Source: Chelatococcus reniformis (GTDB lineage Bacteria > Pseudomonadota > Alphaproteobacteria > Rhizobiales > Beijerinckiaceae). Taken from it: a DNA stretch of 64,000 nucleotides. Below are positions 10,606 through 47,377 of this stretch, piece by piece. Both the position numbers and the translations under genes were made by a program. The DNA is taken from the NCBI RefSeq assembly GCF_014640075.1, contig NZ_BMGG01000001.1, positions 372,001-436,000 on the forward strand, given 5' to 3'. Every line of letters starts with the position of its first letter. Within the stretch, counting starts at the first letter, position 1. The notes under the pieces are model-generated. The model ran no database searches. It was not told where the DNA came from and worked only from the letters and a program-made list of their open reading frames with translations.

Positions 10606-10615
10606 GGAGGCGAGC

Positions 10616-31750: not shown

Positions 31751-33343
31751 ATGACCGTCGCCGCCTGGATCAGGCGCAACGCCCACTGGCGTCGGGACAA
31801 GCTCGCCCTCGTCTCCGGCGACCGCCGTTACACCTATGGCGAATTCAACGAGCGCGTGAACCGCCAGGCCAACGGCCTCCTGGCCGAGGGCCTCGTGCGT
31901 GGCGACCGCGTCGCCGTGATCGCCAACAACACGAGCGAGGCGGTGGAGGCGCTGGGCGCGGCTGCCAAGGCCGGCCTGGTGCACGTGCCGATCAACTTCC
32001 GACTGTCGCCCCGCGAGGTCGAGCAGATCCTCACGCACAGCGGCGCCCGCATCGTCCTGGCCGAGCAGGAGTTCGCCGGACTGCTCGACGGTATCGGGCC
32101 CTGCCCCGATCTCAAGCGGATCATCCGGCACGACCCGCGCGACCAGGGCGGATCCGAGCATGAGGCCTGGCTCGCAGGTCAGCCTGATGCCGAGCCGCCC
32201 GTGGACGTAACCGGCGAGGACGACCTCCTCATCGTCTACACCAGCGGCACCACCGGCTCGGCCAAGGGTGCCTTCTTCAAACAGAAGCACTGCGTCGCGC
32301 ATGCCCCGGTACCCGCGCTGGTGTACGACATCCGCGAGGATAGCCGGCTGCTGATGGTCTATCCGCACAACTCCATCGCGTCGATGAACATGTACTACAT
32401 CCCGGCCTGGATGCAGGGGGCGACGGTGGTGCTGGCGGACGCCCGCGGCTTCTCGGCCGAGCGCTGGCTCGGCCAGGTGGAGAGGGAGCGCATCACCCAC
32501 TGCCACCTGGTGCCGACCATGCTGATCCGCGTGCTGGACAGCGGCGCCGTGGGCCAGTTCGACGTCTCGTCGCTCCAGACCGTCGGCTATGGCTCGGCGC
32601 CGATGCCCAAGCACCGCGTCGAGGAGCTCAGCGCCACCTTCGGCAACATCCTGGTGCAGGGCTACGGCATGACCGAGACGTCGTCGATCGCGGCGGCGCT
32701 CGACAAGGCCGAGCATCGCCGTGCGCTGGCGGGTGACGGACGCCGGCTCGCCTCGTGCGGGCGCCCGGTGTTCGGCTGCGAGCTGCGCGTCGTCGGCGAG
32801 GACGGCCACGATGTGAAGCCGGGCGAACTCGGCGAGATCATCTTCCGCGGCCCCTACATCGCGCCGGCCTACTTCAAGGACCCCGAACGCACGGCCCAGA
32901 CCATCGTGGACGGGTGGCTGCACTCGGGCGATCTTGCGGAGCTCGACGAGGACGGCTTCATCTACATCGTCGACCGCAAGAACGACATCATCATCTCCGG
33001 CGGCTTCAACGTGGCGAGCAAGGAGGTGGAAGAGGTCCTCTGCTGGCACGACGCGGTGCGCGAGGCGGCGGTGGTGTCGCGGCCCGATCCGGAGTGGGGC
33101 GAGCGCGTCCATGCCTTCGTCGCGCTGCGCGAGGGTGCTGCGGCGGATGCGGCGGAGCTCATCGCCTTCTGCCGCGACCGGCTGTCCCGCATCAAATGCC
33201 CGGACCGCATCGAATTCGTCGAGGAGCTGCCGCGCAATGCGCTGGGCAAGCTCGTCAAGGGCGACCTGCGCGCCCGCGCCCGCGCCCGCGCCCAAACGGA
33301 ATCGCAAGCCCAGGCCCGCCAGCCGGTCCGCGGCGACGCCTGA
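31751..33343 (+). CDS. Acyl-CoA synthetase (AMP-forming), module 1
   Basis: A 530-residue ANL-superfamily ligase. Motifs: LLIVYTSGTTGSAKGAFFKQ (P-loop, about residues 160-178), QGYGMTETS, GWLHSGDLAELDEDGFIY and DRKNDIIISGGFNVASKEVE, and the catalytic Lys in PRNALGKLVKGDL near the end. It activates a carboxylic acid to its CoA thioester; the substrate is unknown. The last 25 residues are a repetitive Arg/Ala and Gln tail. GTG at 31730 is an alternative start; GGAG supports the ATG at 31751. It heads a + strand module with a Liv-type transporter and a ketosynthase, suggesting the acid is imported and then activated. Confidence 0.87.
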   Translation: MTVAAWIRRNAHWRRDKLALVSGDRRYTYGEFNERVNRQANGLLAEGLVRGDRVAVIANNTSEAVEALGAAAKAGLVHVPINFRLSPREVEQILTHSGARIVLAEQEFAGLLDGIGPCPDLKRIIRHDPRDQGGSEHEAWLAGQPDAEPPVDVTGEDDLLIVYTSGTTGSAKGAFFKQKHCVAHAPVPALVYDIREDSRLLMVYPHNSIASMNMYYIPAWMQGATVVLADARGFSAERWLGQVERERITHCHLVPTMLIRVLDSGAVGQFDVSSLQTVGYGSAPMPKHRVEELSATFGNILVQGYGMTETSSIAAALDKAEHRRALAGDGRRLASCGRPVFGCELRVVGEDGHDVKPGELGEIIFRGPYIAPAYFKDPERTAQTIVDGWLHSGDLAELDEDGFIYIVDRKNDIIISGGFNVASKEVEEVLCWHDAVREAAVVSRPDPEWGERVHAFVALREGAAADAAELIAFCRDRLSRIKCPDRIEFVEELPRNALGKLVKGDLRARARARAQTESQAQARQPVRGDA

Positions 33344-33417
33344 AGCCCGCGTCTAGACGGGCCGGACCCTGACGCAGATCGGGGCGAAGGCCAAACACAG
33401 AGGGGAGGATGAGGCTG

Positions 33418-34572
33418 ATGATCAAGTCGATCACACGACGTGTGGTGCTCGCCGCCGCAGTGGCCGGGCTGGCGGCTCCGGCCCTGGCGCAAGGGGCTGA
33501 CCGAGGGCCGGTCAAACTGGGGGCGGTGCTGAGCCTCAGCGGGCCGGCCGCGGTGTTCGGCATTCCCGAGCGCGATGCGATCCAGGCGGTGCTCAAGCAG
33601 ATGCACTCCACCACGCCGGACGGGCGCCGCATCGATCTCGTGCTGGTGGACGACAAGAGCAACCCGACCGAGGCTGCCCGCGCCGTCTCGCAGGTCATCA
33701 ACAACGACCAGGTGGTGGCGATCATCGGTCCGAGCACCGGATCGGGCATCCTGGCCGCCGGGCCGATCGCCCAGCGCCTCAAGGTGCCGCTGCTCGGCCC
33801 CGCGGGCACGCTCGCCATCACCGATCCCAAGAACGAGTTCTATCCCTGGGTGTTTCGTGTCGCTCCCAGCGACATCGTCGATATCCGCGTGATCCTGCGC
33901 GACATGGCCAAGAGCAAGACCAAGAAGGTCGGCATCTTCTATCAGGAGGATGCCTATGGGAAGACCGGCGTCGACGAGGCCAAGATCTTCGGACCGACGA
34001 TCGGGCTCAATGTGGTCGATACGGTGAGCGCCCCTTATACGGCGACCGACCTGACGGCACAGGCCACCAAGCTGCGCAACGCCGGCGTCGAAGCCGTCTT
34101 CCTGCAGGTGTCGATCTCGGCGCTGGGCAGCTCCTTCCTCAAGGCGGCGCGGCAGGTGGGGCTCGACGTCCCGATCTACGCCAATGCGGGCCTCGCCCAG
34201 CGTTCGTTCGCCGAGAACACCGGGCCGGAGGCGGAAGGCCTGCGGGTGCTCAGCATCGGCAACATCCCCTTCGACCCGGTCGGCGGTGAAGTGGAACTCG
34301 CCAAGATGCTGCAAGCCGAGGGCAAGGTGCCCCAGGGCTGGGGCGAGCTCGTCGGCACCAATGCGCTGATGGCCGCCGTCGCCGCCATCGACGCGCAGAA
34401 GGGCAAGGAGATCACCGGCGAAAGCATGCGCGACACGCTCGAGACGCTCTGCAACTTCAAGGCCTACGCGCGCGGCAAGGCCTGCTTCGCCAAGGACAAG
34501 CACGACGGCTGGGGCGAGGACGCGCTGGTCATCACCGAGCTGCGTAACAAGCAGCTCAAGACCCTGGACTGA
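33418..34572 (+). CDS. Liv-type ABC transporter substrate-binding protein, module 1
   Basis: A 384-residue periplasmic protein: Sec signal (VVLAAAVAGLAAPALAQ), then VKLGAVLSLSGPAAVFGIPE and the Venus-flytrap fold with IIGPSTGSGILAAGPIAQ and VGIFYQEDAYGKTGVDE. This subfamily of leucine-binding-like proteins often binds aromatic or other carboxylates rather than amino acids when next to a CoA ligase. An ATG at 33409 touches the GGGGAGG sequence, so the ATG at 33418, 9 bases after it, is the better start. First gene of the Liv part of module 1. Confidence 0.85.
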   Translation: MIKSITRRVVLAAAVAGLAAPALAQGADRGPVKLGAVLSLSGPAAVFGIPERDAIQAVLKQMHSTTPDGRRIDLVLVDDKSNPTEAARAVSQVINNDQVVAIIGPSTGSGILAAGPIAQRLKVPLLGPAGTLAITDPKNEFYPWVFRVAPSDIVDIRVILRDMAKSKTKKVGIFYQEDAYGKTGVDEAKIFGPTIGLNVVDTVSAPYTATDLTAQATKLRNAGVEAVFLQVSISALGSSFLKAARQVGLDVPIYANAGLAQRSFAENTGPEAEGLRVLSIGNIPFDPVGGEVELAKMLQAEGKVPQGWGELVGTNALMAAVAAIDAQKGKEITGESMRDTLETLCNFKAYARGKACFAKDKHDGWGEDALVITELRNKQLKTLD

Positions 34573-34582
34573 CGAGGGCGCC

Positions 34583-35437
34583 GTGCTGGCGATCGCCGAA
34601 TACGTCGTGCGCGGCGCCCTCTCGGGCGCCATCTACGCCCTCCTCGCCGTGCCGATGAGCCTCATGTTCGTCACCGTGCGGACGATCGACTTCGCCGTCG
34701 GCGCCTATGCGCTGATCGCCGCCGCGGTGTGCTGGAGCGTCGGCGGCGCGCTCGGCCTCGCCGCGGGCCTCGGTGCGGCGATGGCCTGCGCCGCTTTCAT
34801 GGCGATCATCTTCCTCGCTTTGAAGCGGCTGGGCTGCGAGGACCACATCATCTACGCCCTGGCGAGCTTCGGGCTCGCCACGGCGCTCGCCTCGCTGGTG
34901 CTGTGGTGGTGGGGCACCCAGGCCTTCGTGCGCGACGCCTTCTCCGATCCCTGGTCGGTGGGCGGCATCCGCCTGGCGCCACAGGGCGTGATCAACTTCG
35001 CGCTGATCCTGCTGCTGGTAGGCGCGCTCCACCTGCTGATCCAGCACACCAGCCTCGGCCGCATGATGCGGGCCGCCGCCGCCAACCAGACCGGCGCGGC
35101 CCTGGCGTCGATCCCCGTCCAGGGCATCCAGGTGGGCACCTACCTGGCCGGCGGCCTGCTCGGCGGCCTCGCCGGCCTCCTGGTGCTGTATTCGGCGGGC
35201 CTCGACTTCACCGCCCCGCTCGGTCTGACCCTGAGCGGTTTCGGCGCCGCCATCATCTTCGGCATCGGCAGCCCGCTGCGTGGCTTCTTCGGCGGCCTGG
35301 CCATGGGCATCGCCCAGGCGCTGGCAGCCGGCTACGCCTCGGCCATGGTGGCTGGCATGGTGCCGTTCCTGTTCGTGCTCCTGGTGTTGACCACCAGCCG
35401 CTTCGGCGAAGAGGCGCTGGCGGGAGGGCGGCCATGA
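34583..35437 (+). CDS. Liv-type ABC permease LivH, module 1
   Basis: A 284-residue inner-membrane permease with GTG start 10 bases after the binding-protein gene. It has about eight hydrophobic segments; LSGAIYALLAVPMSLMFVTV at the first and GLTLSGFGAAIIFGIGSPLRG near the end match LivH proteins. The usual G-x-L-N-F-A-H-G stretch reads RTIDFAVGAYALIAAAV here. It overlaps livM by four bases (ATGA). Confidence 0.83.
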   Translation: MLAIAEYVVRGALSGAIYALLAVPMSLMFVTVRTIDFAVGAYALIAAAVCWSVGGALGLAAGLGAAMACAAFMAIIFLALKRLGCEDHIIYALASFGLATALASLVLWWWGTQAFVRDAFSDPWSVGGIRLAPQGVINFALILLLVGALHLLIQHTSLGRMMRAAAANQTGAALASIPVQGIQVGTYLAGGLLGGLAGLLVLYSAGLDFTAPLGLTLSGFGAAIIFGIGSPLRGFFGGLAMGIAQALAAGYASAMVAGMVPFLFVLLVLTTSRFGEEALAGGRP

Positions 35438-36435
35438 GCTTCCCCGGCCAGCGCTATCTGGGCCCGCGCCCCAACACGCTGATCATCGCCGTCTGCGTGC
35501 TCGTCGCCCTGCCGGTGGTGCTGACGCGCCCGGTGTGGACCGACAGCGCCGTCGTGCTCGGCGTCTATGCGCTGCTCGGCCTCTCGGTCGGCATCAGCTA
35601 CGGCCAGGCCGGGATCCTCACCATGTCGCAGGGGGCCTTCGCCGCCATCGGCGGCTATGCCGCGGCCATCCTGACCACGCGCTTTGGCTGGCCGCCTTAC
35701 GCCGACCTTCTCGTCGCGATGGCGCTGCCGGCCGCGCTCGCCTACGGCGTCGCGCGTCTGGTGACGCGGCTGTCGCCGCTGGCGACGGCGCTCGCCACGC
35801 TCGCGCTGGGCTCGGTGATCGAGATCCTCATCCGCAACGCCGACGCGCTCACCGGCGGCTATATCGGGCTCGCCGGCATTCCCTCCGTCGGCGCCATCAA
35901 CACGCCGGCCGGCTACGCCTGCCTGGCGTGGGGCATGATCGTCGTCACCGTCTTCCTCTACGAGAACCTGATGTGCTCGGCCTACGGGCGCGCCCTCAAC
36001 GTGCTGCGGGTCGACCAGGCGCGGGCCCGCGCCGACGGCATCGACGTGCCGGCCCTGATGAGTGCGGGCTTTGCCGTCTCGGCCGCGGTGGCGGGCGCCG
36101 CCGGCTGGCTCTACGCCCATTACATCAGCTTCCTGAGCCCGGAATCGCTCGACACTCACATTTCGATCTCCGCCCTCTTGATGGCCGTCATCGGCGGCGC
36201 CGGCTACATCCTCGGCCCGATCGTCGGCACGCTGCTGTTCGACGGCCTGACGCGGCTGATGCCGGCGGCGGAGCTGCAGGGCTTCTTCTATGGTGCCGCC
36301 CTCATCATCATCCTGCTCGCCGCCCGCACCGGCATCCTGGGCCTGCTGGCCGGTCTCGCCCGCCGCTTGCGCCGGCCGGACGCCACGCCGGCGCCGCGCG
36401 CCGCCAACCTGAGCCCGCAGGAGTCGCTGCCATGA
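35434..36435 (+). CDS. Liv-type ABC permease LivM, module 1
   Basis: A 333-residue permease, partner of the LivH above. Typical stretches are GISYGQAGILTMSQGAFAAIGGYAAAI (about residues 50-76), GGYIGLAGIPSVG and the cytoplasmic loop ALNVLRVDQARARADGID (about 190-207). It overlaps livH upstream and livG downstream by four bases each, so the block is translationally coupled. Confidence 0.84.
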   Translation: MSFPGQRYLGPRPNTLIIAVCVLVALPVVLTRPVWTDSAVVLGVYALLGLSVGISYGQAGILTMSQGAFAAIGGYAAAILTTRFGWPPYADLLVAMALPAALAYGVARLVTRLSPLATALATLALGSVIEILIRNADALTGGYIGLAGIPSVGAINTPAGYACLAWGMIVVTVFLYENLMCSAYGRALNVLRVDQARARADGIDVPALMSAGFAVSAAVAGAAGWLYAHYISFLSPESLDTHISISALLMAVIGGAGYILGPIVGTLLFDGLTRLMPAAELQGFFYGAALIIILLAARTGILGLLAGLARRLRRPDATPAPRAANLSPQESLP

Positions 36436-37223
36436 GCCGCGGGCTCACCGCCACCGGCATCGAGGTGGCCTTCGGCGGCGTGCACGCCCTCAGGGGCGTC
36501 GACGTTGCGGTCGAGCCCGGCAAAGTCGCCGGACTCATCGGCCGCAACGGCTCGGGCAAGACGACGCTGTTCAACTGCATCACCGGCTTCGTGCGGCCGA
36601 CCGCCGGCCGCACCACCGTCGACGGCGTCGACGTCACCAGCCTGCCGCCGGACCGGGTGGTGAAGCACGGCATCGCCCGTACCTTCCAAACGCCGCGCGT
36701 CGACCCGCGCGCCACCGTGCTGTCGGCCGTGCTATGCGGCTTCTACAGCCGCGTCGGCGCCTCCTTCGTCGGCTCGCTGCTCGGTGTGCCCGGCGCATGG
36801 CGCGAGGAGCAGCGCCTGCACCGGCGGGCCGAGCCCATCCTGGAGCGGCTGGGGCTGGCCGAGTTGCGCGGCCGCGAGGTTGGCCAGTTGTCCATGGGGC
36901 TGATCCGGCTGGTCGAGGTGGCGCGTTGCCTCGCCTCGGGCGCCCGCTTCGTGCTGCTGGACGAGCCGGCCGCGGGACTGACGGCGGCCGAGCAGGAGCG
37001 ATTGGCGGAGCAGGTTCGCGCCGTCGCCGCCAGCGGCGTCGGCGTACTGATCGTCGAGCACAACATCGGGCTGGTGCGCAGCCTTTGCGACACCGCGACC
37101 GCGCTTGAGACCGGCCGCGTGCTCTGTGCGGGCACGCCGGAGGCGGTGGTGCGCGACGAACGGGTGATGCGCTCCTATCTCGGCGCCATCGGCGACCTCG
37201 CCGCAACGGAAGCTGCCGCATGA
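36432..37223 (+). CDS. Liv-type ABC ATPase LivG, module 1
   Basis: A 263-residue ATPase with Walker A GRNGSGKTT (about residue 38), Q-loop region GIARTFQTPRVDPRA, a relaxed signature LSMGLIRLVEVARCLASGA, Walker B FVLLDEPAAGL and switch His in LIVEHNIGLV. The Asn/Ser of the usual GPNGAGKTT is changed slightly but the catalytic residues are intact. Four-base overlaps with the genes on both sides. Confidence 0.85.
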   Translation: MSRGLTATGIEVAFGGVHALRGVDVAVEPGKVAGLIGRNGSGKTTLFNCITGFVRPTAGRTTVDGVDVTSLPPDRVVKHGIARTFQTPRVDPRATVLSAVLCGFYSRVGASFVGSLLGVPGAWREEQRLHRRAEPILERLGLAELRGREVGQLSMGLIRLVEVARCLASGARFVLLDEPAAGLTAAEQERLAEQVRAVAASGVGVLIVEHNIGLVRSLCDTATALETGRVLCAGTPEAVVRDERVMRSYLGAIGDLAATEAAA

Positions 37224-37990
37224 CGCTCGTCCAGACAGCCTCCGCGCCAGCCGTCTCGGCCCGCGCCACGGGGCCCGCCGCGCTGGCCGCCGCCGGCCTC
37301 AGCGCCCGCTACGGCCGCATCGAGGTCTGCCGCGACATCTCGTTCGAGGTGGCTCCGGGCGAATTCCTGATCCTGCTCGGCGCCAACGGCGCGGGCAAGA
37401 GCAGCCTGCTCGGCGCGCTCGCCGGCATCGTCGCGTCGGCCGGGACAGTCACCGTCGGCGGCCGCCGCATCGACGGCGTGAGCCCGCAGCGGCGCGCCCA
37501 CGCGGGCCTCGCGCTGGTGCCCGAGGGACGCGGCAACCTGTTTGGCCCGCTGACCGTGGACGAGAATCTCGACCTCGGCCTGCGCCACCTCAGGTCCGAC
37601 GAGCGGGCCGGCATGCGCGCCGACCTCAACCGGCTGTTCCCGGTGCTGGCCGAGCGCGGCCGGCAGGCCGCGGCGATGCTGAGCGGCGGCGAGCAGCAGA
37701 TGCTGGCCCTGGCGCTCGCTATCGCACGGCGGCCCACGGTGCTCCTGCTCGACGAGCCCTCCCAAGGGCTGGCGCCGGTGGTGCTCGACGAAATCGTCGC
37801 GGCGGTGAATCGCCTGCGCACCTTCGGCATGGCGCTGATCATCGCCGAGCAGAACGTCCGCTTCGCCGCCGCCCTCGGCGACCGCTTCATCGCGCTGCGC
37901 GGCGGCGAGGTCGTCGACGAGGGGCATCCGTCGGAGCTCGCCAACCATTCGGGGACAGCTGCCCGCCTGCTTGGCGCCGCCCCCCATTAA
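37220..37990 (+). CDS. Liv-type ABC ATPase LivF, module 1
   Basis: A 256-residue ATPase with a non-homologous Ala/Ser/Thr-rich leader of about 24 residues. Walker A is GANGAGKSS, signature MLSGGEQQMLALALAIARRP, Walker B VLLLDEPSQGLAP, and IIAEQNVRFA in the switch region. The C-terminus carries the usual LivF extension. It overlaps livG by four bases and is followed after 21 bases by the ketosynthase gene, so transporter and enzyme are probably one transcript. Confidence 0.85.
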   Translation: MTLVQTASAPAVSARATGPAALAAAGLSARYGRIEVCRDISFEVAPGEFLILLGANGAGKSSLLGALAGIVASAGTVTVGGRRIDGVSPQRRAHAGLALVPEGRGNLFGPLTVDENLDLGLRHLRSDERAGMRADLNRLFPVLAERGRQAAAMLSGGEQQMLALALAIARRPTVLLLDEPSQGLAPVVLDEIVAAVNRLRTFGMALIIAEQNVRFAAALGDRFIALRGGEVVDEGHPSELANHSGTAARLLGAAPH

Positions 37991-38011
37991 CTCGATCCGC
38001 AGGAGGCCCAC

Positions 38012-39268
38012 ATGCTCGACGTCGCGATCACAGGCACGGGAATCGTCTCCGCCGTGGGCTGCAACACGCGCACCTACCACCAGAACCTGATGGCGGGGGA
38101 GACGGCGATCCGGCAGGCGCCGTGGGCGGACGGCCAGGCCGACCGGCCGAGCTGGTGGGCCATCATCCGCGACTTCGAGCCCCGCGACTGGATGGACGAC
38201 AAGGTCGAGAGCGGCACCGACATGTTCGCGCAGTTCGCCCTGGCGGCCTCGCGCCAGGCGATCGACCAGGCCGGGCTGGGCCAGATCGAATCGGAGCGCA
38301 CCGGTGTCGTGCACGGCACCAGCATGGGCGGCACGCGGGCCCTCATGCGAGCGCAGCACCTGCTCGACGCGCGGGGCCCGACGGCGATCCCGCGCAAGAC
38401 CGAGATCCAGATCTATCCCAACATGGCGGCGTCGCAGATCGCGATGGAATACGGCATCCACGGCCCGAGCCTGACGGTGACCACCGCCTGTGCCTCCTCG
38501 CTCGATGCCATCGGCACCGCCGCCCACATGATCGCCAGCGGCCGGGCCGACGTGATCATCGCCGGCGGCACCGACGGCGGTCTCGCCCAGCCCGGCGGCA
38601 CGGCGGAGAAGGGTTTCGTGCCGGCGCTCTACTATTCCAGCACGCTCTACGGCATGGTCGCCCCGTCGAACGATCCCAGGCGCGCGATGATGCCGTTCGA
38701 CGTGAAGCGAAGCGGCATCGTCGTCGGCGAAGGCTCGGCCATGTTCGTGCTGGAGCGCGGCGACCGGGCGCGGGCCCGCGGCGCCGACATCCTGGGCTAT
38801 GTGCGCGGCTACGGCTCGCTCGCCGACGCCTATCACCCCTCCTCGCCCGAGCCGAGCGGCCGCTGGGAGGCGCGGGCCATGCAGTTGGCGCTGGCCGATG
38901 CCGGCATGGAAGCCGGGCAGGTCGATGCCCTGATCGCCCATGCGACCGGCACCCCGAAGGGCGACACGGCCGAGATCCTGGCGATCAACGCCGTTCACGG
39001 GCGGCGGCCGACGCCGCTGCCGGTCGCCTCCGTCAAGGGCCACGTCGGCCACAGCGGCGCCTCGTCGGGCGGGATGGCCGTCGTCACCGGCCTGCTCGGC
39101 ATGCGGGAGGACCGCTTCCTGTTCACCGCCAACACCGACGAGCCCGATCCGGCGGCCGAGTTCGACGTGGTGATCAAGGAGCCGAGGCGACTCGCCTACG
39201 GGACGCTCCAGGTGAATGCCTTCGGCTTCGGCGGCCAGAACGCGTCGATCGTGGTGACCCGCAACTGA
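38012..39268 (+). CDS. Stand-alone beta-ketoacyl synthase, copy 1
   Basis: A 418-residue FabF-like condensing enzyme. The catalytic residues are all in place: Cys160 in TTACASSLDAIGTA, His310 in AHATGTPKGD and His347 in KGHVGHSGASSG. The N-terminal VAITGTGIVSAVG and C-terminal NAFGFGGQNAS are usual. No acyl carrier protein, ketoreductase or acyltransferase gene is near, so it may act on CoA thioesters or on the housekeeping carrier protein. AGGAGG precedes the ATG. It closely resembles the gene at 46121 (about 4 differences in the 65 residues around Cys160, counted by eye). Product unknown. Confidence 0.85.
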   Translation: MLDVAITGTGIVSAVGCNTRTYHQNLMAGETAIRQAPWADGQADRPSWWAIIRDFEPRDWMDDKVESGTDMFAQFALAASRQAIDQAGLGQIESERTGVVHGTSMGGTRALMRAQHLLDARGPTAIPRKTEIQIYPNMAASQIAMEYGIHGPSLTVTTACASSLDAIGTAAHMIASGRADVIIAGGTDGGLAQPGGTAEKGFVPALYYSSTLYGMVAPSNDPRRAMMPFDVKRSGIVVGEGSAMFVLERGDRARARGADILGYVRGYGSLADAYHPSSPEPSGRWEARAMQLALADAGMEAGQVDALIAHATGTPKGDTAEILAINAVHGRRPTPLPVASVKGHVGHSGASSGGMAVVTGLLGMREDRFLFTANTDEPDPAAEFDVVIKEPRRLAYGTLQVNAFGFGGQNASIVVTRN

Positions 39269-39314
39269 CGCCTTGTACGGCGTTGCGAGACGGCCGGTGC
39301 GCCGCCGAGTGGCG

Positions 39315-39331
39315 TAACATAAATTATGTTA
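39315..39331. promoter_or_regulatory. Operator-like palindrome upstream of maoC
   Basis: TAACATA-AAT-TATGTTA has perfect 7-base arms around three bases, in an AT-rich patch between ketosynthase 1 and the MaoC gene, 43 bases before its ATG. The size suits a TetR-type site. It suggests that maoC and module 2 have their own promoter. Confidence 0.4.
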
Positions 39332-39374: not shown

Positions 39375-39878
39375 ATGGGGGCAGCCGCTGCCGACGCCGC
39401 CACATCCGGGGCCGAGCTCACGCTGAACGAGCTCAAGGAGCAGGTCGGGCGTGAGCTCGGTGTGTCACGCTGGATCGTGGTCGATCAGGCCCGCATCGAC
39501 GCCTTCGCCGCCGTCAGCGGCGACCACCAGTTCATCCACGTGGACCCGGTGCGTGCCGCCCAGACGCCGTTCGGCGGCACCATCGCCCACGGCCTGCTGA
39601 CGCTGTCGCTGATGGGCGAGATGGGGCACATGTTCCCACGCATCGCCGGCCAGACCATGGGCGTCAATTACGGCTTCGACCGCATCCGCTTCCTGGCGCC
39701 GGTCCCCTCCGGGTCCGCCATCCGCGCCCGCTGCACGCTGGCGGAGCTGAGCGAGCGGTCTCCCGGCAACTGGCTGTTCCGCTACCTCATCACCGTCGAG
39801 ATCAAGGACCGGAGCCAGCCGGCCATGGTCGCGGACTGGCTCATCCTCAACGCCATCACTGACAGCGCCGCTGCCTGA
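39375..39878 (+). CDS. MaoC-like (R)-specific dehydratase/hydratase
   Basis: A 167-residue single hot-dog-fold protein. The catalytic signature is FAAVSGDHQFIHVDPVRA (about residues 46-63), with the Asp and His of the hydratase pair, followed by PFGGTIAHGLLTLSLMGEM. It would add or remove water on an enoyl/3-hydroxyacyl thioester, a step that would follow reduction of a ketosynthase product. GGGAGA lies upstream of the ATG. It sits alone between the two modules, 106 bases after ketosynthase 1 and 43 before the second ligase. Confidence 0.86.
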   Translation: MGAAAADAATSGAELTLNELKEQVGRELGVSRWIVVDQARIDAFAAVSGDHQFIHVDPVRAAQTPFGGTIAHGLLTLSLMGEMGHMFPRIAGQTMGVNYGFDRIRFLAPVPSGSAIRARCTLAELSERSPGNWLFRYLITVEIKDRSQPAMVADWLILNAITDSAAA

Positions 39879-39921
39879 CCGGCCGGGCCGCCCGACATCA
39901 AGTCCAATCAGGGAGGAACCG

Positions 39922-41487
39922 ATGGAGCAGGGGGAATCGCTTCGGCCGAACGTGTCGCGCTTCGCCGATCTGATCCGGATCGCCGCGCGTGCGGCCCCGC
40001 AGGCCGCCGCGCTCGTCTGCGACGGGCGCACGTGGACCTATGGCGAGCTGATGGAGCGCGCGCGCCGGCTCGCCGCCGGCCTGCCCGCGCTCGGGCTGAA
40101 ACCGGGCGACGCGGTGGGGATCCTCTCCACGAACCGGCCCGAATACCTCGAGGCCTACATCGGCTTGCAGCTCGCCGGCCTGGTGGCGGTGCCGGTGAAC
40201 TTCCGCCTGGCGCCGGCCGAGGTGCAGTACGTCCTGGGCAACTGCGAGGCGCGCGGTCTCATCGTCGAAGACCAGTATTCGGAGGCCGTCGAGGGGCTCC
40301 TGGCCGAGCTGCCCGGCCTGTCCGGCGACGCCATCGTCGCCATCGGCGAGGCTGCCGGAGGGCGCCTGCGCTATGAGGAGCTGCTGGCGCGCAGCACCCC
40401 GCTCGCGGAGGCCGCGCCGCTGCCGCCGCTCGCGCCGGCCGTCATCTTCTACACCTCGGGCACGACGGGCTTCCCCAAGGGCGCCACGATGAGCCACCTC
40501 AACATGCTGACGCGCCTGTCGTCGTGGGGCTGGGAGTTCGGGCTCAATCGCGAGGACGTCGTCCTCGTTCCAGGCCCGGTCTTCCACGGCTCGTTCTCCG
40601 GCATCGCCCTGACCACGCTCGCCGTCGGCGGCACCGTCATCCTCGCGCGCGACTTCGACGCGGCGGGCGCGGTGGAGCTGATCGAGGGCCACGGGATCAC
40701 CTGGAGCTTCCTGGTGCCCAAGATGATCGAGCTCCTGACGGAGGCACTGCCGCCTGGCGCAGGCCGGTCCCTGCGCGGCCTCCTGAGCTCGGGCTCGCCG
40801 CTGCCCCAGCCGCTGCTCGACACCATCCTCGCCAAGCTGCCGCACGTGCGCCTCGCCGACGCCTACGGCTGGACCGAGACCGGCTGGCTGACGATCTGCC
40901 GCCACGCCGATCTTGCCCGCGGCAAGCGCTCGGTCGGCCGCCCGGGCTTCGGCTGCGAGGTCGCCATCCTGGGCCCCGACGGCAAGGAGCTCGGCCCCGG
41001 CGAAGTGGGCGAGATCCATGCCGCCAACCCCGTCGGCTTCCTCGGCTACCACAACAATCCCGAGGCCACGAAAGCCGCCCGCAAAGGCAAGTGGGAGAGC
41101 GGCGGCGACCTCGGCTTCATGGACGAGGACGGCTACCTCTGCCTCGTCGACCGCAAGAACGACATGATCATCAGCGGCGGAGAAAACATCTACCCCGCCG
41201 AGATCGAGCGGGTGCTGGCCCAGCACCCCGGGATCATGGAGGTCACGGTCGTCGGCGTGCCGGACGAAAAGTGGGGCGAGTCGCCGCGCGCCTGCGTCGT
41301 GCTGCACCCGGGCGAAGAGGCGAACGCCCATGACATCCAGTCGTTCTGCAACGGCCGGCTCGCCCGCTACAAGCATCCACGCTCGGTGATCTTTCTCGAG
41401 GCGCTGCCCCGCAATGCCATGGGCAAGGTGCTGCGCCGCGAGCTGCGCCAGCGCTATGCCGGCGAGCCGCGGACCACGGCGGCGTAA
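39922..41487 (+). CDS. Acyl-CoA synthetase (AMP-forming), module 2
   Basis: A 521-residue ANL ligase. Motifs: VIFYTSGTTGFPKGATMSH (about residues 175-193), DAYGWTETGW, GKWESGGDLGFMDEDGYLCL, DRKNDMIISGGENIYPAEIE and the catalytic Lys in PRNAMGKVLRRELR. It shares general architecture with the ligase at 31751 but is clearly diverged outside the motifs, so the two probably take different acids. GGAGG precedes the ATG. It begins the second module and is followed after 123 bases, including a family C repeat, by a Liv binding protein. Confidence 0.87.
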   Translation: MEQGESLRPNVSRFADLIRIAARAAPQAAALVCDGRTWTYGELMERARRLAAGLPALGLKPGDAVGILSTNRPEYLEAYIGLQLAGLVAVPVNFRLAPAEVQYVLGNCEARGLIVEDQYSEAVEGLLAELPGLSGDAIVAIGEAAGGRLRYEELLARSTPLAEAAPLPPLAPAVIFYTSGTTGFPKGATMSHLNMLTRLSSWGWEFGLNREDVVLVPGPVFHGSFSGIALTTLAVGGTVILARDFDAAGAVELIEGHGITWSFLVPKMIELLTEALPPGAGRSLRGLLSSGSPLPQPLLDTILAKLPHVRLADAYGWTETGWLTICRHADLARGKRSVGRPGFGCEVAILGPDGKELGPGEVGEIHAANPVGFLGYHNNPEATKAARKGKWESGGDLGFMDEDGYLCLVDRKNDMIISGGENIYPAEIERVLAQHPGIMEVTVVGVPDEKWGESPRACVVLHPGEEANAHDIQSFCNGRLARYKHPRSVIFLEALPRNAMGKVLRRELRQRYAGEPRTTAA

Positions 41488-41499
41488 GAGGTCGAAGGC

Positions 41500-41583
41500 G
41501 GATGGATGGCCCGCTCAAGCCCGGCCATGGCGAAGAGTGAACCCTGCAAGCGTCATGGCCGGACTTGTTCCGGCCGTCTATCA
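41500..41583. repeat. GGCCGGGC-type intergenic repeat, family C, copy 2
   Basis: GATGGATGGCCCGCTCAAG followed by CCCGGCCATGGCGA (41501-41533), then CGTCATGGCCGGACTTG and TTCCGGCCGTCTATC (41551-41583). It corresponds to the copy at 30626-30748, with the order of the two parts changed. It lies between the second ligase and the second Liv binding protein. Confidence 0.55.
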
Positions 41584-41610
41584 ACCAAAGAAAAACTTCG
41601 GGAGGATACA

Positions 41611-42768
41611 ATGAATATCGGTCGATTACTTTCGATCATCGCCTCGGCATCCCTGGCGCTGTGGGCTCCAGGGGCCCTCGCACAGACCGACACGGTCAAG
41701 CTCGGCGTCATCGGCAGCCTCACCGGCCCGCACTCCGGCTGGGACGTGCCGGCAAGCGACGGCGTCCAGATGGCGGTGAGCGAGATCAATGCCGCCGGCG
41801 GCTTCAAGGTCGGCGACAAGACCTACAAGTTCTCCGTGGTGCAGGAGGACACCCAGTCCAAGCCCGACATCGCCGCCACGGCGGCGCAGAAACTGCTGAG
41901 CGATGAAGACATCCGCTTCGTCATGGGCGTGCTGACGAGCACGCCCGGTGTGCCGGTGGCCAACCAGATGGCGCGCGCCAAGGTCCTCTACGTCGGCGGC
42001 TTCACCGCCATGGACGGGCTGGTCGGCACCAAGGGCAAGGAGCTGCTGCTCCGCGCCCTCGATACCGATGAGACCGCGGCCAAAGGCTTCGTGCCCGCAG
42101 CAGCCAAGGAACTCGGGCTGAAGCGCGTCGGCATGCTGCTGCCCAACGACGACGTCAGCAAGTCGATCGTCAAGATCTACGAGCCGTTGTTCAAGCAGAA
42201 TGGCATCGAAGTCGGCCTGGTCGAGCTGTTCCAGCCGGGCACCACGGATTTCGCGCCGGTCCTGCGCAAGTTCCAGAACCAGGGCCTCGACGGCCTCTTC
42301 ATCGGCTATTCCGATCCGGACGCCGAGGCCATCATCCGCCAGAGCCTCGAGATCGGCGGGCTCCCCACGAAGTTCGTCTATCGCGGGGGCTCCAGCCAGC
42401 CGGCGGCGAAATACGCCGACAAGATCGACGGCTTCCTCTGGCAGATCCTGACACGCGATCTCGCCAACCCCAGCGACGACAAGGTCAAGGACTGGATCCT
42501 CCGCTACAAGGCCTTCACCAAGAAGGAGGTCACGCCGCAGACGTATTGGGCGCTCACCTTCTACGACACCGTCTTCATGCTGGTGAAGGCGATGCAGGAG
42601 GCCGGCACCGTCACCGATCCGGCGGCCGTCGCCGCCAAGCTCAAGGGCATGGCCTACGACGGCGTGCGGCGCATGAGCTACAACGGCGAGGGCCGGGCCA
42701 TCACCGATATCGACATCGGCGTGCTCAAGGGCGGCAAGGTCTATTCCATTCCGCAGAAGATCCTCTGA
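41611..42768 (+). CDS. Liv-type ABC transporter substrate-binding protein, module 2
   Basis: A 385-residue periplasmic protein: Sec signal (LLSIIASASLALWAPGALAQ), then VKLGVIGSLTGPHSGWDVPA and a Venus-flytrap fold with AVSEINAAGGFKVGDK, VMGVLTSTPGVPVANQ and FIGYSDPDAEAIIRQ. GGAGG lies 7 bases upstream. It differs strongly from the module 1 binding protein, so the ligands probably differ. First gene of the Liv block of module 2. Confidence 0.86.
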   Translation: MNIGRLLSIIASASLALWAPGALAQTDTVKLGVIGSLTGPHSGWDVPASDGVQMAVSEINAAGGFKVGDKTYKFSVVQEDTQSKPDIAATAAQKLLSDEDIRFVMGVLTSTPGVPVANQMARAKVLYVGGFTAMDGLVGTKGKELLLRALDTDETAAKGFVPAAAKELGLKRVGMLLPNDDVSKSIVKIYEPLFKQNGIEVGLVELFQPGTTDFAPVLRKFQNQGLDGLFIGYSDPDAEAIIRQSLEIGGLPTKFVYRGGSSQPAAKYADKIDGFLWQILTRDLANPSDDKVKDWILRYKAFTKKEVTPQTYWALTFYDTVFMLVKAMQEAGTVTDPAAVAAKLKGMAYDGVRRMSYNGEGRAITDIDIGVLKGGKVYSIPQKIL

Positions 42769-42780
42769 GGGGACCGCGCC

Positions 42781-43647
42781 ATGGGACTGGACATCGCTCA
42801 GACTTTGATCGACGGGCTGATGGTCGGCGGCCTCTACGCCACCGTCGCCCTCGGCATCACGCTCGTCTTCGGGCTGGTCGGCATCCTGAACTTCGCCCAT
42901 GGCCAGAGCGTCATGCTCGGCGCCTATGTGACGTTCTTCGGCGTCCAGGCCGGACTCGGCTTCTGGCTGAGCGCGGCACTGGCGGTGCTCGCCATGGCCG
43001 CGTTCGGGGCCATCCTGGAGCAGTTGGTCTTCCGACGCACGTTGGGCGACCACATGGCGGGCCTCGCCGTTTCGCTCGGGCTGATCATGGTGATCGAGAA
43101 CCTGGCGGCGGCGACCTTCTCGCCCGATCCGCGCTTCGTCGATCCGCCGGTATCGGGAAGCATCATGGTGGGGCCTTTGCAGCTGTCCTCCCAGCGGCTC
43201 CTGGTACTCGCCATCTCCACCGCACTCATCGGCGGCTTCTACCTGTTCCTGCAGCGGGCAACGCTCGGCAAGGCGATCCGCGCCATGGCGCAGAACCGCC
43301 AAGGCGCCGCGCTGGTGGGCGTGCGCGTCTCGCTGGTCAGCCGCACCATCTTCACCATCGGCAGCGCACTCGCAGGCGCGGCCGGCGCCCTCTATGCCAG
43401 TCTCTTCGCCGTCACCCCCTACATGGGCAACACGCCGCTGACCAAGGGCTTCATCCTGGCGGCGCTGGGCGGTCTCGGCAGCGTGCCGGGCGCCATCGCC
43501 GCGGGCTTCCTGCTCGGCATCGCCGAGAGCTTCGGCTCCCGCTACCTCTCGGCCTCGTTCCGTGACGGCTACGGCTTCATCCTGCTCATCCTGGCGCTCC
43601 TGTTCCTGCCCACGGGGCTGTTCGGCGCCGGCAAGGCGCGCGTATGA
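42781..43647 (+). CDS. Liv-type ABC permease LivH, module 2
   Basis: A 288-residue inner-membrane permease. It keeps the classical LivH stretches GLYATVALGITLVFGLVGILNFAHGQSVMLGAYV (split here: residues about 17-50) and AALGGLGSVPGAIAAGFLLG near the end. About eight hydrophobic segments. It starts 12 bases after the binding-protein gene and overlaps livM by four bases. It is closer to textbook LivH than the module 1 copy, which lacks the NFAHG motif. Confidence 0.86.
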   Translation: MGLDIAQTLIDGLMVGGLYATVALGITLVFGLVGILNFAHGQSVMLGAYVTFFGVQAGLGFWLSAALAVLAMAAFGAILEQLVFRRTLGDHMAGLAVSLGLIMVIENLAAATFSPDPRFVDPPVSGSIMVGPLQLSSQRLLVLAISTALIGGFYLFLQRATLGKAIRAMAQNRQGAALVGVRVSLVSRTIFTIGSALAGAAGALYASLFAVTPYMGNTPLTKGFILAALGGLGSVPGAIAAGFLLGIAESFGSRYLSASFRDGYGFILLILALLFLPTGLFGAGKARV

Positions 43648-44687
43648 CCGACATGCCCGACCTCGCCACCGCGTCCGTTCCGCCGGCCAAGGCGCCCACC
43701 GCCTGGCGAGGCTGGCTCGGCAGCCTCGCCGGCCGCCGCACCCTTCTCGCCGTGCTCGGCATCGCCGCGTTGGCTGTGCTGCTCGCGGTGCCGGCCACGG
43801 CGAGCTCACGCTACATCGTCTACCTCGGCACGCTGCTCGCGCTGCATGGCGTGCTGGCCGTTTCGCTCAATATCATCATGGGCTTCGCCGGCCAGTTCGC
43901 CCTGGCCCATGCCGCATTCTACGGGCTCGGCGCCTATACCTCGGCGATCCTCATCCGCGACTTCGACCTGAGCTTCTGGGCCTCACTGCCGCCCACGGCC
44001 GCCGCCGCAGCCCTGCTCGCGGCAGCCATCGGCTATCCCTCCCTGCGCTTCACCGGCGGCATCCACTTCGCCCTGATCACCTTCGCCTTCGGCGAGCTCA
44101 TCCGCCTGGTCACGGCGAACTGGCACGATCTCACCGGCGGCCCGCAGGGCATGCAGCTCGGCTTCAGTCCCGAGCCGCTGCTCGGCATCGACTTCGGTTC
44201 GACCCGCGGCATCTACGCGCTGGCGGCGGGGCTGCTGGTGATCTCGCTCGCCATCGCCGCCGCCATCCGCTTCAGCCGCTTCGGCCGCTCCCTGGTGGCC
44301 ATCCGCGAGGACGAGGTGCTGGCCTCCTCGCTCGGCATCAACGTCACGGCCAACAAGATGGCGGCCTTCGTCATCACCTCCGTGCTCGCGGCACTCGCCG
44401 GCACCATCTACGGACCCTTCGTCGGCTTCATCTCGCCGGAGATGATGAGCGCCTCCGACTCCATTTCCGTCGTCGGCATGCTCATCGTCGGCGGTCTCGG
44501 CACGCTGGCGGGCCCGATCTTCGGCACCTTGATCTTCATGGGCCTGCCGGAGCTGCTGCGCGTCGCCAAGCTCTACCGGCTGGTGATCCTCGGGCTCATC
44601 ATCATCGCCGTCGTCCTGTTCGCCCCCAAGGGTGTCGCCGGCGTCATCGACCGGCTCATCAGGCCCAAACGCGGGGGGGCTCGCTGA
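43644..44687 (+). CDS. Liv-type ABC permease LivM, module 2
   Basis: A 347-residue permease. A 30-residue leader precedes the first helix; then SLNIIMGFAGQFALAHAAFYGLGAYTSA (about residues 73-100), TGGPQGMQLG and the loop VAIREDEVLASSLGIN (about 217-232) match LivM. Its stop overlaps the livG start (TGATG). Translationally coupled on both sides. Confidence 0.86.
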   Translation: MTDMPDLATASVPPAKAPTAWRGWLGSLAGRRTLLAVLGIAALAVLLAVPATASSRYIVYLGTLLALHGVLAVSLNIIMGFAGQFALAHAAFYGLGAYTSAILIRDFDLSFWASLPPTAAAAALLAAAIGYPSLRFTGGIHFALITFAFGELIRLVTANWHDLTGGPQGMQLGFSPEPLLGIDFGSTRGIYALAAGLLVISLAIAAAIRFSRFGRSLVAIREDEVLASSLGINVTANKMAAFVITSVLAALAGTIYGPFVGFISPEMMSASDSISVVGMLIVGGLGTLAGPIFGTLIFMGLPELLRVAKLYRLVILGLIIIAVVLFAPKGVAGVIDRLIRPKRGGAR

Positions 44688-45412
44688 TGCTGCGGCTGGA
44701 GGGCATCGGCCATCGCTTCGGCGGCCTGGAGGTGCTGCGCCGGATCGACACCTCGGTCGCTGCCGGCGAACTCGTCGGCCTGATCGGGCCCAACGGCGCG
44801 GGCAAGACCACCCTGTTCAACATCATCAGCGGCTTCGTGCGGCCGGCCACCGGCCGGGTCTTCTTCGAAGGCCGGGACGTCACCGGCTGGAAGCCCAACG
44901 TGCTGGCGGCGCTCGGGTTGGTGCGCACCTTCCAGGGCGCGCGGGTCTTCCCCAATCTCACGGTGAAAGAGAGCCTCGCGATCGCCCGCCGTCCGGTGAA
45001 GGGCCGTCAGGGCGATGCCGCCGCGCGGGTCATTGCCACGGCGCAGCAGCTGTTCGACCTCGACGCCCACGCGGGCGAGGAAGCGGGCTCGCTGCCGAGT
45101 GGATTGATGCGCGTGCTGGGTATCGCCATGGCGTTGTCGACCGGCGCCCACGTGCTGTTGCTGGACGAGCCCGCCGCCGGGCTGAGCGGCGAGGAGATGG
45201 AGCATCTCCAGGAGGTGATCCGGCAGTTGCACCAGGCCGGCACGACGATCGTGGTCGTCGATCATAACCTGCACTTCCTCATGGGGCTGGTGACCCGCGC
45301 CATCGTCCTCGATTCCGGCATGCTGATCGCCGACGGCCCGCCCGAGGCGGTTACCGCCGATCCCCGCGTCGTCGAAGCCTATCTGGGAGCCGCCGACCTT
45401 GCTGACGGTTGA
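44687..45412 (+). CDS. Liv-type ABC ATPase LivG, module 2
   Basis: A 241-residue ATPase: Walker A GPNGAGKTT (about residue 37), Q-loop region LVRTFQGARVFPNLTV, relaxed signature LPSGLMRVLGIAMALSTGA, Walker B VLLLDEPAAGLSG and switch His in VVVDHNLHFL. The Leu-Pro-Ser-Gly signature departs from LSGGQ, as in other LivG proteins. Its last 14 bases overlap the livF gene. Confidence 0.86.
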   Translation: MLRLEGIGHRFGGLEVLRRIDTSVAAGELVGLIGPNGAGKTTLFNIISGFVRPATGRVFFEGRDVTGWKPNVLAALGLVRTFQGARVFPNLTVKESLAIARRPVKGRQGDAAARVIATAQQLFDLDAHAGEEAGSLPSGLMRVLGIAMALSTGAHVLLLDEPAAGLSGEEMEHLQEVIRQLHQAGTTIVVVDHNLHFLMGLVTRAIVLDSGMLIADGPPEAVTADPRVVEAYLGAADLADG

Positions 45413-46097
45413 GAACCTGAAGGTCGCCTACGGGCGCGTCGAAGCCGTCCGCGGCGTCTCCTTCGCTGTCCCGGCGGGGCAGATCGCGGCGCTGATCGGA
45501 GCCAACGGCGCGGGCAAGAGCAGCACGCTCAACGCGCTCACCGGGCTGGTGCGCTGCCGCGGCAAGATCGCCGAGGGGGACATCCGCTTCGATGGGCTGG
45601 CGACCGACGCCATCGTGCGCCACGGCGTCGTACAGGTGGCGCAGGGCCGCCAGCTGTTTCCGCTGATGAGCGTGCGCGAGAACCTGGAGCTCGGGGCCTT
45701 CCTGCGCTCGGCGGCGGACAAGCGGCGGCGGCTCGACGAATTGATGGCGCGCTTTCCGCTGCTCGCCGAACGGGCCGAGCAGGCCGCCGGCACCCTGAGC
45801 GGCGGCGAGCAGCAGCTCGTGGCCATCGCCCGCGCGCTGATGGCGGAGCCGCGCATCCTGCTCATCGACGAGCCTTGCCTGGGGCTGGCGCCGATCATGA
45901 TCCGCCGCGTGGCCGCGGTGCTGCGCGACCTTCACGCCGCGGGCCTCACCATCCTGATCGCCGAGCAGAACGCCTCGTTCGCGACCGCCATCGCCGAGCA
46001 CCTGCTCGTCATGGAGAACGGCCGCATCACCCAGGCCGGGCCGCCGGCCGCGGTGATGGCGCACGCGGACGTGCGCCGCGCCTACCTCGGTATCTGA
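45399..46097 (+). CDS. Liv-type ABC ATPase LivF, module 2, TTG start
   Basis: A 232-residue ATPase: Walker A GANGAGKSS (about residue 36), VAQGRQLFPLMSV, signature LSGGEQQLVAIARAL, Walker B ILLIDEPCLGLAP and LIAEQNASFA. The only start that keeps the LivF N-terminus (MLTVENLKVAYG) is TTG at 45399, with GGGAG about 10 bases upstream; this rare start and the 14-base overlap with livG suggest coupled, possibly reduced, translation. It is followed after 23 bases by ketosynthase 2. Confidence 0.85.
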   Translation: MLTVENLKVAYGRVEAVRGVSFAVPAGQIAALIGANGAGKSSTLNALTGLVRCRGKIAEGDIRFDGLATDAIVRHGVVQVAQGRQLFPLMSVRENLELGAFLRSAADKRRRLDELMARFPLLAERAEQAAGTLSGGEQQLVAIARALMAEPRILLIDEPCLGLAPIMIRRVAAVLRDLHAAGLTILIAEQNASFATAIAEHLLVMENGRITQAGPPAAVMAHADVRRAYLGI

Positions 46098-46120
46098 GCC
46101 CGTACGAAGGAGACCCTGAC

Positions 46121-47377
46121 ATGCACGACGTCGCCATCACCGGAACCGGTGTCGTCTCCGCCCTCGGCGTCGGCTCCCGCACCTTCCACAACCAGCTCAT
46201 GGCCGGCGCCAGCGCCATCCGCGAGGCGCCCTGGCACAGGAAGGAGAGCCGCGAGCCGTCGTGGTGGGCAATCGTGCGCGACTTCCGCCCGTCCGACTGG
46301 ATGAGCGACCGGGTCGTGGACGGCACTGACCTGTTCGCCCAGTTCGCCCTCGCCGCCGCCAAGCAGGCCATGGATGAAGCGGGCCTCGGCGCGCTCGATC
46401 CGCTGCGCACCGGCGTGGTGCACGGCACCAGCATCGGCGGGGCCCGCGCCCTTATGAAGGCGCAATACGCCCTCGACACCGAAGGGCCGCAGGCGGTGCC
46501 GCGCAAGACCGAGATCCAGATCTACCCCAACATGGCGGCGTCGCAGATCGCCATGGCCTACGGCCTGCACGGGCCGAGCCTGACGGTGACCACCGCATGC
46601 GCCTCCTCCCTCGACGCCATCGGCACGGCCGCGCACATGATCTCGAGCGGCCGCGCCGACGTGATCATCGCCGGCGGCACCGAAGGCGGCCTCGCCGGCG
46701 CCGACGGCCGGCCGGAGAACGGGTTCGTGCCGGCGCTCTACTACACCAGCACGCTCTACGGCATGGTGGCGCCGCGCGACGAGCCGCGGCTCGCGATGAT
46801 GCCGTTCGACCTCAAGCGCAAGGGCATCGTCGTCGGCGAAGGGTCGGCCATGCTGGTGCTGGAACGCGGCGAACACGCCCGTGCCCGCGGCGCCCCCATC
46901 CTGGGCTACGTGCGCGGCTACGGCTCGCTCGCCGACGCCTACCACCCCTCCTCGCCCGATCCGAGCGGCATCTGGGAGGCGCGGGCCATGGAACTGGCGC
47001 TCGCCGACGCCGGCATCCCCGCTGAGGACGTCGATGCGCTGATCGCCCACGCCACCGGCACGCCGAAGGGCGACGAAGCGGAGATCCTCGCCATCAACAA
47101 GGTGCACGGCGACCGCAAGCAGCCGCTGCCGGTGGCCTCGATCAAGGGCCACCTCGGCCACAGCGGCGCCTCCTCGGGCTGCATGGGCCTGATCACCGGC
47201 CTCATCGGCATGGACGAGGGCCGCTTCGTCTACACCGGCAACACCGACGAGCCCGACCGCGAAGCGCGCTTCGACATCGTCATCCGCGCGCCGCGGGCCA
47301 CCAAAGTGAGGACGTTGCAGGCCAACTCTTTCGGCTTCGGCGGCCAGAATGCCTCCGTGGTGGTGACGCGGGATTAG
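46121..47377 (+). CDS. Stand-alone beta-ketoacyl synthase, copy 2
   Basis: A 418-residue FabF-like enzyme, the same length as copy 1. Cys160 in TTACASSLDAIGTA and the two catalytic His residues (AHATGTPKGD, KGHLGHSGASSG) are conserved. It differs from copy 1 mainly in the N-terminal 60 residues and the region after residue 190. AAGGAG precedes the ATG by 8 bases. It closes the second module. The TAG stop (47375-47377) is part of a family A hairpin repeat. Role as for copy 1: likely condensation or cleavage of an acyl thioester formed by the module ligase; unproven. Confidence 0.85.
   Translation: MHDVAITGTGVVSALGVGSRTFHNQLMAGASAIREAPWHRKESREPSWWAIVRDFRPSDWMSDRVVDGTDLFAQFALAAAKQAMDEAGLGALDPLRTGVVHGTSIGGARALMKAQYALDTEGPQAVPRKTEIQIYPNMAASQIAMAYGLHGPSLTVTTACASSLDAIGTAAHMISSGRADVIIAGGTEGGLAGADGRPENGFVPALYYTSTLYGMVAPRDEPRLAMMPFDLKRKGIVVGEGSAMLVLERGEHARARGAPILGYVRGYGSLADAYHPSSPDPSGIWEARAMELALADAGIPAEDVDALIAHATGTPKGDEAEILAINKVHGDRKQPLPVASIKGHLGHSGASSGCMGLITGLIGMDEGRFVYTGNTDEPDREARFDIVIRAPRATKVRTLQANSFGFGGQNASVVVTRD

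Follow-up and report, generated by a model that had tools for sequence, protein, structure and literature searches.

Stand-alone FabF-type enzymes are usually read as parts of fatty-acid or polyketide synthesis that need an acyl carrier protein (ACP). A different kind of system, in which a Liv (HAAT) ABC importer is combined with a CoA ligase, is represented by CouPSTU of Rhodopseudomonas palustris, which reportedly handles aromatic acids (PMC3610893). Here we examine a stretch of 64,000 nucleotides of the Chelatococcus reniformis genome (contig NZ_BMGG01000001.1, positions 372,001 to 436,000; 'the window' throughout) in which genes for a Liv-type periplasmic binding protein (SBP) and for LivH, LivM, LivG and LivF (LivHMGF) likewise occur with genes for AMP-forming acyl-CoA ligases (lig). 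Two such modules are present and each ends with a gene for a FabF-fold ketosynthase (KS). We know of no Liv importer-CoA ligase operon, such as CouPSTU, with a ketosynthase at the module end. The initial annotation had remarked that it knew of no described pathway with a dedicated terminal ketosynthase, and we too found no description of the ligase-Liv-KS module or of the KS subfamily in the open-licence literature. What looks new is the KS subfamily and its presence in such an arrangement, the importer-ligase part being of a known kind.

The boldest reading, to which we would give a probability of roughly one in three, is that a rare and patchily distributed subfamily of FabF-derived KSs has switched from ACP to CoA esters and, in two phyla, makes or breaks the carbon-carbon bond of a pathway coupled to import. 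In the window both reaction partners would come from the two importers and their two ligases, or the KS would replace the thiolase in a beta-oxidation-like route. The run of genes is real and recurrent, and it is probably a functional operon.

FabF chemistry and the carrier surface

Both KSs of the window (KS1 and KS2) score above the cut-offs of the N- and C-terminal ketoacyl-synthase domains (PF00109 and PF02801). The nearest PDB match of KS1 is a FabF (1j3n) and the best PDB matches are FabFs. However, with 326.9 and 332.2 bits, KS1 and KS2 miss the cut-off of the fabF model TIGR03150 (493.75 bits), and their genes are located with CoA ligases, not with fab genes.

Fifteen genes of the family were examined and rechecked by tblastn (E <= 1e-6): KS1, KS2, the third copy of this genome (KS3, locus L026), one from Bradyrhizobium jicamae (L027), those of loci L042-L051 and one from a Rhodococcus qingshengii plasmid (L060). 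They represent nine genera, with L043-L045, L046-L047 and L050-L051 each coming from a single genus. In an alignment to Escherichia coli FabF, whose numbering omits the first residue, the catalytic cysteine, histidine, lysine and histidine and the gating phenylalanine (FabF C163, H303, K335, H340 and F400; KS1 C160, H310, K342, H347 and F406) are kept in 15/15. The gate-network residues D265 and N404 of FabF are likewise kept.

The surface that would dock the carrier is different. A FabF-AcpP study (PMC7138838) gives K65, R68, K69, R127, K128 and R206 as charged AcpP contacts and I129, S130, P131, F132, A205 and R206 as a hydrophobic patch. Five of these six charged contacts are gone from the KS family. 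Only site 65 is basic throughout (K or R in all 15); site 68 is D, E, S or G, site 69 is always G, site 128 is A, S or G and site 206 is always Y (none basic at any of these four), while site 127 is basic in a single member. P131-F132 is replaced by an invariant R-K. The FabF-like proteins of two other places in this genome (L012 and L013) are basic at all six sites. A further difference from a type II fatty-acid or polyketide synthase cluster is that no plausible ACP gene was found near the KS by a motif rule applied to 14 stretches, which recovered E. coli acpP as a control; three open reading frames in L050/L051 matched the rule and, by eye, are not ACP-like.

Because the ACP surface is gone while the catalytic chemistry is kept, we read the subfamily as one that now works on CoA esters in place of ACP, R128-K129 of KS1 being a candidate phosphate-binding pair. 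The route proposed in the initial annotation, in which carboxylic acids would be imported, activated and then condensed or cleaved, is consistent with this combination of kept and lost residues.

Neighbourhoods of the family

An AMP-ligase gene lies beside the KS gene, or in the same run, in 13 of the 15 cases (the exceptions are L048 and L049). Liv genes share the run in six: KS1, KS2, L026, L027, L049 and L060. Counted by genus, seven of the nine have the ligase, four have Liv genes and four have an HpaB-type gene (described below); the Liv link spans two phyla. Since the ligase is so frequent and Liv genes recur across genera and phyla, the association is not a local accident. The ligase is the steadier partner of the KS, and a fixed KS-Liv bond as a trait of the whole family was rejected on these counts. 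The link between KS, Liv importer and ligase drawn in the initial annotation therefore survives a neighbourhood search for the ligase, but for Liv only in some lineages. In a ligase tree of 17 sampled rows, built without a broad outgroup, lig2, the second ligase of L027 and the KS-adjacent ligases of L042-L047, L050 and L051 form a clade of ten (support 99/98) that is separate from the lig1 type. Our reading is that a lig2-type ligase and a KS may be the usual core in Pseudomonadota and that importers were added in some lineages.

Some of these loci need comment. L046, L047 and L051 were not counted as Liv modules: their ABC ATPase genes lie 3-7 kb from the KS and are about 30% identical to the window Liv proteins, and L046 additionally has a BPD_transp_2 permease at 3-7 kb. 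The L049 stretch stops at its contig end. At L049 (1788-10499) a KS of 46% identity is co-directional with genes for a 2-hydroxyacid dehydrogenase, an SBP, LivHMGF, a weak MaoC match and a TPP-enzyme, and there is no ligase. At L044 (5649-7550), from a relative of the alphaproteobacterial class, an aldehyde ferredoxin oxidoreductase (AFOR) gene directly follows the KS-ligase pair.

A search of this genome with KS1 gave 17 places at E <= 1e-8, but only three belong to the KS subfamily (100, 75 and 69% identity, with the next-best matches at 35 and 39%). All three directly follow a livF. The third, C4:422459-423697, ends another ligase-SBP-LivHMGF-KS run, of the module-1 type, and as it likewise directly follows livF the adjacency is more than chance; the three modules are related, however, and do not count as independent events. 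None of the four remaining short stand-alone KS places (L012-L015) adjoins a PF02653 permease place, the nearest being about 7 kb away on contig C3. In B. jicamae the order is TetR, lig1, SBP1, LivHMGF1, KS, MaoC, another ligase, SBP2 and LivHMGF2, without a KS2.

The Liv link also occurs on the R. qingshengii plasmid, whose source is stated as crude oil. Its KS (45% identity) is part of a run that reads TetR, KS, ligase, SBP, ECH, LivH, LivM, LivGF and CaiB, followed by ECH, carboxyltransferase, FabG, an APH-type kinase, acyl-CoA dehydrogenase and MaoC. The transport proteins are closer to module 1 than to module 2 (SBP 36 vs 28%, LivH 40 vs 30%, LivM 41 vs 28% and LivF 50 vs 39% identity; SBP1 itself is 35.5% identical to the KS-linked SBP). 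When this SBP was searched back into the C. reniformis genome it gave 85 matches at E <= 1e-10, with 150 of the 178 candidates scored. The two KS-linked module-1 SBPs headed the list with 216 and 214 bits, followed by a match of 117 bits. A nearly identical plasmid of Rhodococcus NJ-530 carries the same cluster and was left out of the counts. In that record (L062, 6987-8203) the annotation splits the KS into two adjacent pieces; it is whole in the R. qingshengii plasmid. SBP2 had a sole plasmid match (32%), in Hydrogenophaga, with no KS in the feature table of that plasmid.

The family is rare. At E <= 1e-90 it was found in 9/385 genomes of a class sample (own included), in 1/398 of a phylum sample (own only), in 2/65 of the genus set of a Reyranella metagenome-assembled genome and in 1/265 of a Bradyrhizobium genus set; at E <= 1e-100 it was found in 1/60 relatives (own only). 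Two records of a plasmid collection have it, both from Rhodococcus. These absences are not strict since few candidates were scored per genome (four in the class and phylum samples, six in the Bradyrhizobium set and up to 27-30 in the 60 relatives and the Reyranella set). A contig scan, which was narrow (one protein, short patterns), gave four loci, one of which (L030, 37%) is from Oscillospiraceae. Such a patchy distribution of the family points to horizontal transfer.

The initial annotation described the modules as tandem. Their order and gene lengths do match, but a recent repeat was rejected. Outside the KSs, modules 1 and 2 share 35-36% identity in the ligases, 24-25% in the SBPs, 31% in LivH, 32% in LivM, 39% in LivG and 41-42% in LivF, compared with 75% between the KSs (78% at the DNA level), which argues against tandem duplication. 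Two anciently diverged importer-ligase sets thus have one KS type in common. In a KS tree, KS1, KS2, KS3 and the Bradyrhizobium KS form one clade (support 100/100). Within it KS2 is the outside branch with moderate support (83/74, several outgroup rows having long branches), so the KS1/KS2 split may be older than the divergence of the window and Bradyrhizobium copies.

Layout of the putative operon and possible substrates

The 15 genes from 31751 to 47377 form a compact run, all on the + strand, with a divergent TetR gene as the 5' neighbour (Table 1). The initial annotation had placed all of them correctly, as well as the order ligase-SBP-LivHMGF-KS, repeated once with a single MaoC gene in between. 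It also gave the right lengths for the KSs and SBP2; its 384 residues for SBP1 apply when counting from an internal methionine. Each module has the parts expected of a Liv importer, with one SBP, a pair of permeases and a pair of ATPases encoded in the same run. Ligases, SBPs, KSs and MaoC were named by Pfam, LivH and LivM by PF02653 places, and LivG and LivF by BLAST similarity only.

Table 1. Genes of the putative ketosynthase operon and the divergent regulator, in window coordinates
Gene	Position	Strand	Basis and remarks
TetR-family regulator	30726..31583	-	PF00440, PF17932; divergent from operon
lig1, AMP-forming acyl-CoA ligase	31751..33343	+	PF00501/PF13193
SBP1	33409..34572	+	PF13458; 387 aa, or 384 from internal Met
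LivH1 permease	34583..35437	+	PF02653 place C1:406604-407389; BLAST
LivM1 permease	35434..36435	+	PF02653 place C1:407545-408315; BLAST
LivG1 ATPase	36432..37223	+	BLAST similarity to LivG2 and annotated ATPase of L060
LivF1 ATPase	37220..37990	+	BLAST similarity to LivF2 and annotated ATPase of L060
KS1, FabF-fold ketosynthase	38012..39268	+	PF00109/PF02801; 418 aa
MaoC-like hydratase/dehydratase	39375..39878	+	PF01575
lig2, AMP-forming acyl-CoA ligase	39922..41487	+	PF00501/PF13193; type KS-adjacent in relatives
SBP2	41611..42768	+	PF13458; 385 aa; 74% identity in L027
LivH2 permease	42781..43647	+	PF02653 place C1:414805-415596; 81% in L027
LivM2 permease	43644..44687	+	PF02653 place C1:415815-416612; 63% in L027
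LivG2 ATPase	44687..45412	+	BLAST; 66% in L027
LivF2 ATPase	45399..46097	+	BLAST; 66% in L027
KS2, second ketosynthase, same subfamily	46121..47377	+	PF00109/PF02801; 418 aa

Gaps between genes range from -14 to +123 bp. In module 1, as far as KS1, they are 65, 10, -4, -4, -4 and 21 bp; between the modules, 106 bp (KS1-MaoC), 43 bp (MaoC-lig2) and 123 bp (lig2-SBP2); and in module 2, from SBP2 to KS2, 12, -4, -1, -14 and 23 bp. Terminator-like matches are as frequent as in shuffled sequence (6 vs 6.5 expected) and none of the six lies within a + strand intergenic gap of the run. With such tight gaps and no terminator-like match in them, a single transcript is plausible. A scan for sigma-70-like promoters found none (1.1 expected).

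The TetR gene is annotated from the first possible start; homology starts near residue 60-80. Its homologues occupy the same position in L026 and L027 (59-69% identity), and its nearest PDB chains are weak, with KstR2 among them further down the list. The MaoC protein is 66% identical to the L027 copy, which is located after the L027 KS, and 39% identical to that of L060. lig1 is 66-77% identical to the ligases of L026 and L027 and scores 482.5 bits with the PRK06187 subfamily model (cut-off 476).

As a lead only, the imported substrates may be aromatic or hydroaromatic acids. The nearest PDB chains of SBP1 are 4q6w, 3sg0 and 4dqd, some of which were reportedly solved with aromatic acids; several Rhodopseudomonas-type receptors are among its nearest chains. 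For lig1 they are 8weu and 8wev (named feruloyl-CoA synthetase); for lig2 it is FadD5 (8r2q), with 4-chlorobenzoate and 4-coumarate ligases further down. Branched-chain amino-acid binding should not be assumed, since the two SBPs score 57 and 96 bits with a LivJ-type model whose cut-off is 477. Past a TetR-like gene, KS3 is followed by a molybdenum-hydroxylase pair that gives the best or fourth score with 4-hydroxybenzoyl-CoA reductase models, below their cut-offs.

The AbfD/HpaB family, which includes 4-hydroxybutyryl-CoA dehydratase and 4-hydroxyphenylacetate 3-hydroxylase, is represented close to the KS in 7/15 loci (L027, L042-L045, L050 and L051; assigned by Pfam HpaB_N/HpaB) and not in the window. 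This genome has two homologues elsewhere, 75-83% identical to those of L042, L050 and L051. One (L056) is intact, with 6vjr and 1u8v as best PDB matches. The other (L057, 8435-9842, on contig C6) matches in two different frames and so may be broken; it adjoins an FMN-reductase gene and a TetR gene resembling those of L042, L050 and L051. Also beside it are two fused acyl-CoA dehydrogenases that resemble PimC and PimD. The L042 protein has HpaB 2yyg as its best PDB match. From PDB alignments, neither an ordinary phenol hydroxylase nor an Fe-S dehydratase is convincing: the cysteine and histidine that we take to be the AbfD Fe-S ligands are missing, and the residues presumed to bind phenol in HpaB are replaced. 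The plasmid collection gave no HpaB match at E <= 1e-80.

Elsewhere in the window, just downstream of the operon (48150-51158), lies the gene of a large regulator that combines a Trans_reg_C winged-helix domain with an AAA ATPase part. Another Liv-like importer (Peripla_BP_5 type SBP, two permeases and ATPase; 7096-13579) precedes an acetamidase/formamidase gene (FmdA_AmdA), an arrangement that hints at amides being taken up and hydrolysed.

Direction of the reaction and competing explanations

The pathway we have in mind would be encoded by a single operon, presumably under TetR control. Two dedicated Liv importers would take up two different carboxylic acids, each of which would be made into a CoA ester by its own ligase and passed to KSs that lack the usual ACP-docking surface. 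The acyl group would move from CoA onto Cys160, a malonyl-type CoA would be decarboxylated with the aid of the two histidines, and condensation would yield a 3-oxoacyl-CoA. Reduction by an SDR and dehydration by MaoC would then follow, in a CoA-level counterpart of fatty-acid elongation. Both the carrier and the direction are what we infer from the residues and gene neighbours. We see about even chances for carbon-carbon bond chemistry at the beta-keto position of CoA esters in an import-fed pathway and, within it, lean only slightly towards condensing rather than cleaving. In favour of condensation are the complete decarboxylative residue set and the FabG, MaoC and biotin-carrier/carboxyltransferase genes in the L060 run. 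This carboxyltransferase scores 432 with the mmdA model (cut-off 999) and is 35% identical to one near the L042 KS.

Several observations weigh against this pathway. Two of the 15 family genes have no ligase and nine have no Liv operon in the run. The L060 ligase is equally near lig1 and lig2 (34-35%). SBP1 was found at E <= 1e-55 in 2/385 class-sample genomes, its own and one other (G351, 43%), and in the latter 19.5 kb around the run (L069) gave no KS match, although genes for a ligase, MaoC, two SDRs and LivHMGF1-type proteins are present. The window operon itself contains no SDR or carboxylase gene, and the ACP scan consisted of one motif rule only. Lastly, several loci have catabolic-looking neighbours (CaiB, ECH and acyl-CoA dehydrogenases, as well as a methylisocitrate-lyase-like gene and the AFOR gene).

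This catabolic flavour would suit a KS that runs backwards as a thiolase substitute: acids would be imported, activated and then oxidised by enzymes resembling those of beta-oxidation, after which the KS would carry out retro-Claisen cleavage of the 3-oxoacyl-CoA, handing the shortened acyl group to CoA. Indeed, what distinguishes these clusters from a thiolase-dependent beta-oxidation operon is that tblastn with two queries (E <= 1e-4) matched no thiolase in any of 17 stretches, among them the entire window; the same search recovered the control locus L061, in which a motif scan detected only one of two thiolases. No thiolase is listed for L060, which does have ligase, acyl-CoA dehydrogenase, ECH, MaoC and FabG, and the uptake system itself fits. 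On the other hand, cleavage has no need of the decarboxylating residues and FabF gate kept in every member, the carboxyltransferases of L060 and L042 suggest a malonyl-type donor, and a thiolase may be encoded elsewhere in these genomes. We consider reversal somewhat unlikely. We are more doubtful still of a biosynthetic role, in which the operon would gather acids from the environment to start a small secreted product (a signal, pyrone or siderophore part) and would use an ACP provided in trans. Biosynthetic systems commonly pair a KS with a ligase, and the KS chemistry is kept, but the ACP contacts are lost, no plausible ACP gene is nearby, no multi-domain synthase is seen in the operon, and high-affinity dual import with catabolic neighbours suits uptake better.

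It is just as improbable that the KS fold serves acyl transfer (ester or amide formation) or acts as a thioesterase, making no carbon-carbon bond. KS-like acyltransferases exist and the AmcF model was matched, though at 158 and 164 bits, far below its cut-off of 325; the conserved His-His-Lys and gating Phe belong to decarboxylative condensation. Finally, the KS could be a hitch-hiker whose Liv neighbours are incidental, as Liv genes are so numerous. This 6.8 Mb genome has indeed a very greatly expanded set of Liv importers (114 Liv-type permease-family matches and 85 Liv-type SBP matches), and most relatives have no Liv operon in the run. However, the position directly after livF in all three local copies, and the recurrence of the link in Bradyrhizobium and Rhodococcus with the matching SBP type, make chance neighbourhood very improbable.

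If the import-coupled, CoA-level reading is true, the subfamily would provide a condensing (or cleaving) enzyme useful for reverse-beta-oxidation engineering, and genes annotated as fatty-acid synthesis would become a testable uptake and assimilation pathway.

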